Assembly (NCBI GenBank): GCA_028706005.1 | Contig: JAQWCI010000006.1 | Span: 1 to 36,265 of the forward strand | Length of the DNA: 36,265 nt | Direction: 5' to 3' | Source of the DNA: Lachnospiraceae bacterium | GTDB taxonomy: Bacteria; Bacillota; Clostridia; Lachnospirales; Lachnospiraceae | Shown here: positions 7,694 through 27,079 of the stretch, piece after piece | Layout: each line of letters opens with the position of its first letter | Numbering within the stretch: the stretch's first letter is position 1 | Notes under the pieces: generated by a model | What the model saw: only the letters and a program-made list of their open reading frames with translations | What the model was told of the DNA's origin: nothing | Databases searched by the model: none | Program-made: the position numbers and the translations under genes

Positions 7694-7844
7694 TCTGGCT
7701 CCCGGTCTACGGGAATGTTCCGGGCAGAAATGCCCGTTACAGATATATATGCACCAACAAGACAGATCTGCAATGCGACACTGAGCAGTCGCATATATGC
7801 GCAGATCCAAATCTGACAGACAGCTCAGTCATGGAGGAGATATT

Positions 7845-8753
7845 ATGAAAAAGAGGATTCTGGCAACTGTTCTTACATCTGTGATCATAGCCGGCGCTAT
7901 CGCAGGCTGTGGATCAACAGGCAGCACCGGCACAGCAACTGCAGCGACATCAGCGGCAGCAAATGAAGCTGCGACTTCTGGCGACGCAGAGGCTTCTGAT
8001 GCGGCAACCAGCGGCAGTGTTGTGCTGAAGGTGGCGGCAAGCCCCACACCTCACGCTGAAATTCTGGCGCAGGCAAAACCTATTCTTGCAGGGGAAGGAA
8101 TTGACCTTGAAGTAACTGAGTTCGAAGACTACGTTCAGCCGAACGAGGTCGTAGAATCAGGTGATTTTGATGCAAACTATTTCCAGCATGTCCCTTATCT
8201 TGAGTCATTCAATGAGGAAAAGGGCACACACCTTGTCACAGCCGGAAAGATCCATTATGAACCTTTCGGAATTTATCCTGGAACAAAGACAAGCCTTGAT
8301 GATATCGCTGACGGTGATGTCATAGCTGTTCCGAACGATACAACAAATGAGGCGCGTGCGCTGCTCCTGCTCCAGGACAACGGACTTCTCACACTCAAGG
8401 ATGATGCTGGCCTTGAGGCAACTGTAAACGATATAACTAAGAACCCTCATAACCTTAAGATCCAGGAGGTCGAGGCAGCACAGGTCCCGCATCTTGTAAC
8501 TGAAGTTGCCTACGTCGTAATGAACGGCAACTACGCACTGGAAGCCGGCTATACTGTTTCCAAGGATGCTCTCGCATATGAAGCTTCTGATTCTGAAGCT
8601 GCCAAAACATATGTAAATATCATCGCTGTCAAAGAGGGCAATGAGAACAACGATGCCATCAAGAAGCTTGTTGAAGTGCTGAAGAGCGACGAAATAAAGG
8701 ACTTTATAAATTCAAATTACAATGGAAATGTTATCCCTTATGACGGTGACTGA
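7845..8753 (+). CDS. metQ: Methionine-binding lipoprotein (NlpA/MetQ family)
   Basis: Lipobox IAGC, EVTEFEDYVQPNEVVESGDFDANYFQHVPYL. Start 7845 preceded by GGAGGAG. Confidence 0.93.
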   Translation: MKKRILATVLTSVIIAGAIAGCGSTGSTGTATAATSAAANEAATSGDAEASDAATSGSVVLKVAASPTPHAEILAQAKPILAGEGIDLEVTEFEDYVQPNEVVESGDFDANYFQHVPYLESFNEEKGTHLVTAGKIHYEPFGIYPGTKTSLDDIADGDVIAVPNDTTNEARALLLLQDNGLLTLKDDAGLEATVNDITKNPHNLKIQEVEAAQVPHLVTEVAYVVMNGNYALEAGYTVSKDALAYEASDSEAAKTYVNIIAVKEGNENNDAIKKLVEVLKSDEIKDFINSNYNGNVIPYDGD

Positions 8754-8786
8754 TTGACATTCAAATACTGACTTGTCATAATAAAG

Positions 8787-8834
8787 CGCCGATGGTAACT
8801 GACTTAACGTGCAGTCAGATCCATCGGCGTTTTT
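8787..8834 (+). terminator. Rho-independent terminator after metQ
   Basis: CGCCGATGG ... CCATCGGCG + TTTTT, with inner CTGAC/GTCAG. Confidence 0.9.
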
Positions 8835-8845
8835 GACTCAAGATG

Positions 8846-8859
8846 GCCTGTGAACAGTA
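8846..8859. repeat. Left copy of a perfect 14-bp inverted repeat bounding the 8869..9900 gene
   Basis: GCCTGTGAACAGTA is the exact reverse complement of 9997..10010. Confidence 0.85.
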
Positions 8860-8868
8860 ACGGGCTTC

Positions 8869-9900
8869 TTACTTGTTTTGATTCGATCCCGTCGCCTGAG
8901 TCGCTTGGCTTTGACTGGTAATCTTATTGTATCTTGTGCTTTTCCCACGTCCTGCTTTTATGATTAATGAGCTGTCACACATATCGCGCAGTATCCTTCC
9001 AGCAGTTGATGGGCTCACTTGCAGTATAGTTTCGACTTTTTCTCTGGTAATAGTGCCGTTTGTATCAATGCAGTCCAGCACCGTCTGCTGCTCTGAGGAG
9101 TTCTTCTCTTCACTTAAGTATAACGCATCATCATGAACCATCTGCGGCAATACTATCTTGAATGAATTAGGTGCCACCAATATTTCAGGCTTACTATCCG
9201 AAGCGCCATACGCATTGCGGATTTTCTGTATACCTGTTCCGTATGCTTCTATCAGGTCGAGGCGATAGAATATATCTGCCAGCTTTTTATTTCTGCACAC
9301 CGAAATGCCGAGCATAATGTCTTCTTTGTGAATTCCAGGCAACAGGCCACCAATAGAAACAAACTCAATTCTATCACTGTAAATGCTTATCAATGTGCTT
9401 GCACTGTATGAGTAATCCCTATGAATAATGCTATTAAGCAATGCTTCTCTTAATGCATCATCAGGAAATGACTTTTCATCCTTCCGATATAGTCCCTGGA
9501 ACGATGCTGCTGTTGGATTATTCAATTGCATAAATTCATAACTATCCTCAAGCTGTTTCAATAATGATCCATAAAACTCCTTACGATCCCTGAATTCAGT
9601 CTGATCCTTACCTGCAAATACCGCTGTCTTGACTGAAAATGGACATTGATCAGATAGCAACAGGCCTAAATTCGTCCATAATTTGTTTTGCTTTCTCAAT
9701 CCAAGCGTAATCATCTGCTCGTTTGCAAGCTTCATATTATGCTGCCTAAAGATGTCTTTAGCCTTACTAAAAGTCAGATCCTGCAAAACAGAAACTTCAT
9801 TTTCATATGTATCCCCATAGGAATTTGCGAAAGAAACAATTTCCTTCTTCAGTTCGTCAGTTACTTCACGTTTAAATTCTACGTTCTCGTTTTCATTCAT
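8869..9900 (-). CDS. AlbA_2/Schlafen-type putative transcriptional regulator with winged helix; AlbA_2 core apparently deleted
   Basis: ENVEFKREVTDELKKEIVSFANSYG and LREALLNSIIHRDYSYSAST...EFVSIGGLLPG...NKKLADIFYRLDLIEAYGTGIQKI are family hallmarks. Expected ~100 aa AlbA_2 core missing between FANSYG and DTYENEVSVLQDLTF. Confidence 0.85.
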   Translation of the reverse strand: MNENENVEFKREVTDELKKEIVSFANSYGDTYENEVSVLQDLTFSKAKDIFRQHNMKLANEQMITLGLRKQNKLWTNLGLLLSDQCPFSVKTAVFAGKDQTEFRDRKEFYGSLLKQLEDSYEFMQLNNPTAASFQGLYRKDEKSFPDDALREALLNSIIHRDYSYSASTLISIYSDRIEFVSIGGLLPGIHKEDIMLGISVCRNKKLADIFYRLDLIEAYGTGIQKIRNAYGASDSKPEILVAPNSFKIVLPQMVHDDALYLSEEKNSSEQQTVLDCIDTNGTITREKVETILQVSPSTAGRILRDMCDSSLIIKAGRGKSTRYNKITSQSQATQATGSNQNK

Positions 9901-9926
9901 AATCGAATCTCCTCTTTCTAGTCATC

Positions 9927-9955
9927 ATTCTACTCATTCTATTCATTATCGTCAA
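9927..9955 (-). promoter_or_regulatory. SigA-type promoter for the 8869..9900 gene, overlapped by AGAATGA repeats
   Basis: Minus strand TTGACG - 17 bp - TAGAAT; short leader to ATG 9900. Confidence 0.7.
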
Positions 9956-9996
9956 TATGCGTAGCTAGAATGATTAGTAATGATTAGAACATTTGA

Positions 9997-10010
9997 TACT
10001 GTTCACAGGC
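9997..10010. repeat. Right copy of the 14-bp inverted repeat
   Basis: TACTGTTCACAGGC. Confidence 0.85.
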
Positions 10011-10104
10011 GGTTCCTTCAGGAGCTTTGACAGTATAGATTACCTTTGCAGCAATAACATGATATAATTGACCCGAACATATTCTCCAGACATGAGGTGA
10101 ATAC

Positions 10105-11853
10105 ATGGGTGATCAGAAAAAAGCGGCCGATAAGTTATATGATATCAGGCGCACAATACTTGTTGTAGATGACGAAGAGGTGAACCGTGAACTTCTGAAG
10201 AAATATCTCAGGGACGATTACGAATTGCTGTTTGCATGCAATGGATTGGAAGCTCTCAGGATCTGTCATGAGAATGCCGGAAGAATAGCATTGATAATGC
10301 TCGATCTCGTGATGCCGGTGATGGATGGATATGAATTCATGGAAGTTGCAAGGAAAGAACCAGACATTTCCCTGATACCGATAATAGTCACCACGGTCAA
10401 GGATATGGAAGAGGACGAGATACACGCGCTTAAGCTCGGTGCAAGTGATTTTGTAACCAAGCCATACAGCCCGGAGATCATGAAATTACGTGTTTCACGG
10501 ACTATAAGTCAGGTCGATTCAGAGAGCATTATAAGTCGGCTTGAGAGGGATACTGTGACTGGTCTTTATTCAGAGAACTTCTTCTTTTCGTATGCCGACA
10601 GGCTCAAGATGGAATATCCTGATGTCAGTTGGGATGTTCTGTGTGTAGACATTGAAAATTATCATCTTGTGATCGATATGTATGGCAAGGAAGAGGCTGA
10701 GAATATCCTTAGAGCCATTGCTGATATACTCAGAGATGATATGTGGAAGAGTGGTGTCGGGATAGCATGCCGCTCGGATTCAGATCTGTTCTTTATGATC
10801 CTGCCGCACAGGAATGATTACAAAACTTTCCTCAGAAAAGTATTCAGTTCATTTGAATCAAGACCTGATATTCATCATGTTATACTGCATTTTGGTATTT
10901 ACCAGAACATAGACAGAGAAGAACATATAGAGAAAACATGTGATAAAGTCATATCCACTGTTTACAAGACTCGTGGTGTGAGTAGTCTTTGTATTACATA
11001 TTATGATAAGAAAATGAGGGATGAATTGATGGAAAGGCAGATTCTCATTGAGGAGCTGCCGAGCGCATTAAGGGATAAACAGTTTGAAGTGTATTACCAG
11101 CCAAAATGTTCATTGCCTGATGGAAAACTTGTAGGCGCGGAAGCACTTGTCAGGTGGAATAACCCCGAGAGGGGATTTATGCCTCCGGATTCGTTCATTC
11201 CGCTCTTTGAAAAAAATGGACAGATATATCAGGTTGATAAATTTGTCTGGGAGGAAACATGCAGACAGATAAGGGAATGGATAGATAAGTTCGGAAGCTG
11301 TGTTCCGATTTCTGTAAATATTTCGAGAACTGATGTTTATGATCCGAAGATGCCTGATGTCATCTCCGAATTTGTGAAGAAATATGATCTTGATATCAAA
11401 CAGCTCCATCTTGAAATAACTGAGTCAGCATACATGAGAGATCCTTCGCAGCTTGTAAAGATTGTTGAGAATCTTAGAAATCGCAGTTTTGTTGTGGAAA
11501 TGGATGACTTCGGAAGCGGGTATTCTTCGCTCAACATGATTGCCGGACTTCCAATTGACATTCTGAAGCTAGACATGAGGTTCCTGCGCGATGACCGGGA
11601 TGATGGCAAGCCGAAGGATTCAGAAAACAATGAAAAATCTGTACTGCTGCGCTCGATAATGGACATCGCCGATTGGAAAAAGGTGCCGGCTATCGCAGAG
11701 GGAGTAGAGACCAAAGACCAGGTGGGAATGCTCACAGACCTCAAATGCGGTTATGGTCAGGGCTATTTCTTCTCAAGACCGGTTCCTGCCAGAGAGTTTG
11801 AGAAGTTCCTTGAGAATCCCGAAAGAAGTCTTATACCGGAAACGGAAAATTGA
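10105..11853 (+). CDS. Response regulator with degenerate GGDEF and EAL (c-di-GMP phosphodiesterase) domains
   Basis: Receiver TILVVDDEEVNRELL...MLDLVMPVMDGYEF...TKPYSPEIM; GGDEF position reads SDSDLFF; EAL motif EALVRWNNP, DDFGSGYSSL, EGVET. Confidence 0.92.
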   Translation: MGDQKKAADKLYDIRRTILVVDDEEVNRELLKKYLRDDYELLFACNGLEALRICHENAGRIALIMLDLVMPVMDGYEFMEVARKEPDISLIPIIVTTVKDMEEDEIHALKLGASDFVTKPYSPEIMKLRVSRTISQVDSESIISRLERDTVTGLYSENFFFSYADRLKMEYPDVSWDVLCVDIENYHLVIDMYGKEEAENILRAIADILRDDMWKSGVGIACRSDSDLFFMILPHRNDYKTFLRKVFSSFESRPDIHHVILHFGIYQNIDREEHIEKTCDKVISTVYKTRGVSSLCITYYDKKMRDELMERQILIEELPSALRDKQFEVYYQPKCSLPDGKLVGAEALVRWNNPERGFMPPDSFIPLFEKNGQIYQVDKFVWEETCRQIREWIDKFGSCVPISVNISRTDVYDPKMPDVISEFVKKYDLDIKQLHLEITESAYMRDPSQLVKIVENLRNRSFVVEMDDFGSGYSSLNMIAGLPIDILKLDMRFLRDDRDDGKPKDSENNEKSVLLRSIMDIADWKKVPAIAEGVETKDQVGMLTDLKCGYGQGYFFSRPVPAREFEKFLENPERSLIPETEN

Positions 11854-11875
11854 CAGAAAAATTAGCAATCGTGCC

Positions 11876-11904
11876 TTGACATGAATTTTTGTTTATAGTA
11901 TATT
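11876..11904 (+). promoter_or_regulatory. Promoter of tRNA-Gly
   Basis: TTGACA - 17 bp - TATATT. Confidence 0.75.
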
Positions 11905-26972: not shown

Positions 26973-26982
26973 AGAACATATT

Positions 26983-27079
26983 GTAGAGTAGATATCACGC
27001 GTTAAGTGCCATGTGTACGGGATGTTGACCATGGACGAAGGTGTAAGGCGCCGCGGTGTGATATCGCTTCCGCTACTAC
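26983..27079 (+). promoter_or_regulatory. Tetrahydrofolate (THF/folE) riboswitch aptamer
   Basis: GTAGAGTAGATATCACGCGTTAAGTGCC...GGGATGTTG...GGACGAAGG...GGCGCCGCGGTGTGATATCGCTTCCGCTAC matches the remembered THF consensus (AGAGUAGAu-ucGCGUUAAGUG...GGGAUGU...ACGAAG...GCGGUG-aucgcauCCGCU); P1 GTAG/CTAC. Confidence 0.88.

Follow-up and report, generated by a model that had tools for sequence, protein, structure and literature searches.

Genes and Repeats at the Locus

The 36,265-nt stretch of DNA analyzed here (the window; Lachnospiraceae bacterium, assembly GCA_028706005.1) carries a single gene on the minus strand (8869–9900) between the metQ terminator hairpin (8783–8833, plus strand) and a receiver-EAL gene (10105–11853, plus strand). 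It encodes a 343-aa HATPase_c_4 protein with a C-terminal winged-helix-like region and lies downstream of a sigma-70-like promoter, TTGACG-17-TAGAAT (9927–9955, minus strand). Gene and promoter are enclosed by two exact copies of the 14-mer GCCTGTGAACAGTA in inverted orientation, at 8846–8859 (+) and 9997–10010 (−), with a spacing of 1137 nt. A previous reading of the sequence alone (the sequence-only reading) had described perfect 14-bp inverted repeats bracketing one gene with its promoter, a left repeat ending 9 bp from the stop codon, and the absence of both a transposase and a target duplication; its coordinates were exact and these observations were all correct.

This was the sole perfect 14-bp inverted repeat with a spacing of 100–1300 nt in the 36-kb window. 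A comparable repeat was present somewhere in 6 of 60 simulated windows with matched dinucleotide make-up; taken alone, a perfect 14-bp inverted repeat is not rare in a 36-kb window and is weak evidence. The pair was counted as real because the 12-mer CTGTGAACAGTA is in excess in the host genome, because many copies are present in the closest relative (the sister), and because the sister sequence breaks exactly there.

The G+C content between the repeats was 39.5%, compared with 44.7% for the window (approximately the 6th percentile). No target duplication was found at the repeats, as neither the sequences outside (CAAGATG and GGTTCCT) nor those inside (GGGCTTCT and GAACATTT) matched each other, and no remnants of miniature elements (MITEs, see below) above shuffled controls were detected in the flanks beyond them. 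No Rfam family was found at the site. Elsewhere in the window, a THF riboswitch was located at 26982–27077, upstream of a gene for an ECF-transporter-like membrane protein.

Identity of the 14-Mer

When counted by pattern searches, CTGTGAACAGTA was present in nine exact copies in the host genome (G000; 2.41 Mb, 233 contigs), against approximately 0.3 expected for a random 12-mer, and in 14 copies in the sister (G021), whose assembly is also fragmented. The search of host and relatives that the sequence-only reading had proposed thus located the motif elsewhere, both singly and in MITE pairs. That reading had named 14-mers scattered singly without relation to gene boundaries as counter-evidence; they do recur elsewhere, yet the breakpoints described below coincide with them.

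In both genomes, GTTACTGTTCACAGG (outer end first) is the terminal inverted repeat of a MITE family. The motif pairs of the sister are spaced 160–320 bp and ordered GTTACTGTTCACAGG ... CCTGTGAACAGTAAC, and five of its MITEs have 8/8 target duplications directly outside GTT/AAC (GTCACTTG, CTCGGACA, TTCCGAAA, GCGTTCAG, and GCGCAGTT). An 8/8 duplication (ACTGTATC) also borders a 79-bp MITE of genome G048, and a 319-bp MITE of the host, with a duplication matching at 7/8, marks the upper end of the size range (79–319 bp). Moreover, a congener (G051) carries a 2902-bp element whose ends, GTTACTATTCACGGG and CCTGTGAATAGTAAC, are near-identical to those of the MITEs and which shows the 8-bp duplications AATATAAG and GTCTCAGG. 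It encodes a 609-aa IS66 transposase (DDE_Tnp_IS66, PF03050, E 1.1e-13; NCBIfam NF033517, E 7.4e-48, under the cut-off with 163.5 vs. 180 bits). Target duplications of 8 bp are also given for IS66 elements elsewhere (PMC3281130, table).

The left arm at the locus, GCCTGTGAACAGTAAC (8846–8861, +), corresponds to the right-hand terminal repeat and agrees with the MITE end consensus at 16/16 positions, and the right arm, GATACTGTTCACAGGC (9995–10010, −), corresponds to the left-hand one, with 15/16 against the consensus GTTACTGTTCACAGGC. On the basis of these matches, of the 8-bp duplications of the MITEs and of the G051 IS66 element with like ends, the 14-mer is identified as the terminal repeat of an IS66-type MITE. 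A dispersed Lachnospiraceae repeat, one of the options in the sequence-only reading, was therefore the right idea. The orientation differs: the GTT/AAC tips point outward in all the copies with a target duplication and inward in the window, where the right end comes before the left one (GCCTGTGAACAGTAAC – gene – GATACTGTTCACAGGC) and the AAC of the left arm, its outer tip, points at the gene. The window ends, which match those of the G051 element and of the MITEs, are thus inside-out, frame a foreign gene and have no target duplication.

The interiors of these MITEs are tandem arrays of approximately 74-bp units, up to at least five, each consisting of a 40-bp palindrome (TTACCyGyGAA-N18-TTCrCrGGTAA) and a spacer of approximately 34 bp, with stems that vary in concert (CTGTGAA/TTCACAG vs. 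CCGCGAA/TTCGCGG). Such arrays were observed in the host on C64 (L273:334–653), C193 (L270), C160 (L271), C142 (L272), and C145 (L143), and in the sister on C72 (L071), C321 (L164), C185 (L262), and C180 (L255); no Rfam match was obtained for them. On contig C60 of the sister (L163:400–470), a MITE has inserted 8 bp away from where an EAL gene ends. The final codons of this gene (TGAACAGTAAC) look like a MITE end, which hints at a target preference for end-like sequence. The 34-bp tandem repeats GTCCGCCGGGCGTGAATGCCCGCCAGTGAACAGT, from position 11496 of host contig C32 onward (L005), are apparently not related to the MITE.

The Sister Carries a Gene-Less Palindrome

Contig C34 of the sister aligns with the window at 7700–8861 and approximately 10000–11900 with ~96% identity, including the metQ terminator hairpin and the receiver-EAL gene (96% identical), and only a palindrome lies between the two aligned parts. 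This 27-base sequence, GCCTGTGAAAGTAACATGTTCACAGGC, represents both arms merged over one common GTAAC, is gene-less and, as DNA, folds into a hairpin of −8.2 kcal/mol (z −4.9). The interval missing from the sister at this site, which holds the one gene with its promoter, is 8862–9996, with its breakpoint uncertain by approximately 5 bp because GTNAC is common to both arms in the sister. This alignment shows a true presence/absence difference, whose breakpoints lie at the palindrome center. The check for absence in a sister strain, also suggested by the sequence-only reading, therefore had a positive outcome. The other counter-evidence named in that reading, an interval conserved in all relatives without the repeats, was likewise not observed.

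A genus-wide search for right-left palindromes detected, besides the window/sister site, only C155 of the host and C477 of the sister, the latter being two MITEs side by side. The former (CCTGTGAACAGTAACGACTGTTCACAGG, C155:5808–5836, L274) is gene-less and less than 200 bp from a contig end, and it indicates that right-left palindromes arise without a cassette between their arms. No outgroup with the metQ/receiver-EAL locus was found; in a GTDB-wide search with the receiver-EAL protein, synteny was limited to the sister contig, and the next best match had 41% identity.

The Gene and Its Copy in the Sister

The sister has a homologue of the gene at a different place, on contig C397, where genes for a zeta toxin and a DUF6179 protein are its neighbors; apart from the regulator gene, the content of this contig has nothing corresponding to it in the host genome. 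The homologue encodes 434 aa, with 90% protein identity, and comprises two Pfam domains, an N-terminal SLFN_AlbA_2 and HATPase_c_4, whereas only HATPase_c_4 (E 8.5e-16) was recognized in the window protein. Compared with the C397 copy, the window gene has lost 312 bp (104 codons) in frame, and the deletion scar at 9815–9818 shows a 4-bp microhomology, CCAT. The window gene can thus be described, from the comparison of the two copies, as an SLFN_AlbA_2/HATPase_c_4 regulator minus 104 codons in frame, AlbA_2 included. The promoter TTGACG-17-TAGAAT is conserved in the sister's relocated copy, and by this comparison it moved together with the gene.

The dN/dS between the two copies was 0.08, a value that covers mostly the time before the deletion and gives no indication that the shortened gene works. 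Synonymous divergence (dS) was 0.27 between the gene copies and 0.15 and 0.19 for metQ and the EAL gene, respectively, so that the gene copies date from around the time of the species split or slightly earlier, and the gene was probably present already in the common ancestor. No homologue was found in the viral contigs searched, and the plasmid search returned distant homologues only. The weak partial matches obtained with PADLOC were rejected as evidence of a defense role.

Insertion Into a Palindrome or Deletion in the Sister

The reading that we favor, with a probability of about 0.5, is that MITE ends abutted as an ancestral palindrome and that a gene segment of approximately 1.14 kb was then inserted at its center. 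In the common ancestor, a right and a left MITE end would have adjoined between metQ and the receiver-EAL gene, forming a short palindrome. In the host lineage, the ~1.14-kb segment, carrying the AlbA_2/HATPase-type regulator and its own promoter, would then have entered the palindrome center, through capture of a fragment by end joining where the hairpin-forming palindrome had broken, or by another illegitimate route, with the repeats themselves not driving transposition. Two observations point to an insertion: the empty site of the sister with its ~96% identical flanks, and the position of the sister's gene beside a zeta-toxin gene without 14-mers. Insertion is also favored over deletion because a gene-less palindrome of a like sort exists independently (C155), and because a deletion would require two opposed, body-less MITE ends flanking the gene.

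For such an insertion, the simplest and most likely route would be end-joining capture where the hairpin broke, and the microhomology deletion scar in the gene, a mark of end-joining, fits it. A palindrome of 27 bp is short for the known hairpin-cutting nucleases, which weighs against this route. On the other side, breaks in E. coli are reported to concentrate at palindromes (PMC4245961, PMC3315005). As for the origin of a body-less right-left palindrome, one possibility is a side-by-side MITE insertion, comparable to C477 of the sister, followed by loss of the bodies. IS66 is not known to use the copy-out-paste-in IR-IR route. In the IR-IR junction of IS30-type copy-out-paste-in elements (PMC9333248), a right end also lies beside a left one, an arrangement shared with C155 and the sister's palindrome, but the palindromes described here have no adjoining element body.

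A serious rival, which we consider possible but less probable, is that the gene-filled state was ancestral; slippage across the inverted repeat would then have removed the interval in the sister and left a hairpin as its scar. The scar would merge GTAAC with G(A/T)TAC, the two inner pentamers, as in the nearly precise excision of Tn10-type transposons, which leaves an inverted-repeat hairpin like that of the sister, although Tn10-type ends face outward and the window ends inward. The one central GTAAC common to both sister arms agrees with this loss. A deletion also fits because the sister's arms are eroded and match the MITE consensus less closely than the window arms do, and the dS of the gene copies, near that of the flanks, is in line with a gene already present in the ancestor. 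Nevertheless, the outer flanks hold no MITE remnant that would account for opposed, body-less ancestral ends beside the gene, the sister has the gene at a different place with different neighbors, and simple slippage does not account for the one extra and the one missing base at the junction. With the locus found in the host and sister genomes only, insertion is the more probable direction of the change rather than a proven one.

The Cassette Question and Other Alternatives

The sequence-only reading had also considered a non-autonomous mobile cassette. Its mobile part is half right, the interval being missing from the sister and the gene sited elsewhere there; a cassette bounded by the repeats did not stand. 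Such a unit would be a mobile insertion cassette, with an IS66-type transposase acting in trans on the 14-bp repeats to move the gene, which we regard as improbable. In its favor, the repeats are IS66-type ends and the location of the gene differs between the sisters. However, the ends are inverted with respect to all copies with target duplications, the 8-bp duplication is absent, and both repeats are retained at the sister's empty site, where a transposed element would not leave them. Furthermore, the second copy of the gene, in the sister, has no 14-mers on either side, the 3′ side being readable for only ~45 bp, to the contig end. Since the tips face the gene and a flanking duplication is absent, there is no support for reading the interval as a composite transposon or a mobile insertion cassette with these repeats as its ends; the gene has relocated, though probably not by means of the repeats. 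The mobile insertion cassettes named for the Bacillus cereus group (PMC3281130) are similar in that IS-type inverted repeats enclose a single gene and no transposase, and they differ from the window in its reversed ends, its lack of a target duplication and the sister's gene copy without such ends.

As a candidate mobile insertion cassette, the host segment C135:1426–2058 (L003) is better than the window interval: its 633 bp lie between outward MITE ends and contain a single helix-turn-helix (XRE-like) regulator gene; no target duplication was seen there. The motif TTCTYACTTGTTTTG, which occurs at the left edge of the insert and twice in the sister's island, was considered as a cassette attachment site and dropped, its other genome matches lying within genes and being chance-like.

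Still less probable is an assembly artifact, in which repeat-induced chimeric joins placed the gene here; the genome is fragmented (233 contigs) and the repeat dispersed, but an artifact would need two false joins on 14–16 bp, below usual assembly k-mers. Against it also stand the open reading frame and the position of the breakpoint, at the center of a palindrome also found in the sister. The inversion substrate proposed by the sequence-only reading, in which repeat-to-repeat recombination flips the gene, is the least probable of all, as only the geometry of inverted repeats around a promoter-gene unit speaks for it, while a 14-bp repeat offers little length for homologous recombination, the window has no recognized invertase gene, no inverted state was seen, and the sister has no segment at the site.

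Split Palindromes and Gene Capture

The repeats are ordinary MITE ends; what is unusual, though explicable, is that a gene splits an inside-out palindrome of such ends. Perfect inverted repeats tightly around a gene need not bound a mobile unit; they may be the halves of a transposon-derived palindrome that was there beforehand. A more far-reaching idea, which we consider unlikely, is that right-left junction palindromes of IS66-type MITEs act as docking sites that repeatedly capture single-gene segments in this lineage. If true, they would provide a simple, transposase-free route for relocating single genes between closely related genomes. C155 is possibly a second docking site. Its palindrome directly adjoins the stop codon of an Rpn-family nuclease-like gene, and at the equivalent place the sister lacks this gene and continues into a PEP carboxykinase-like gene instead.
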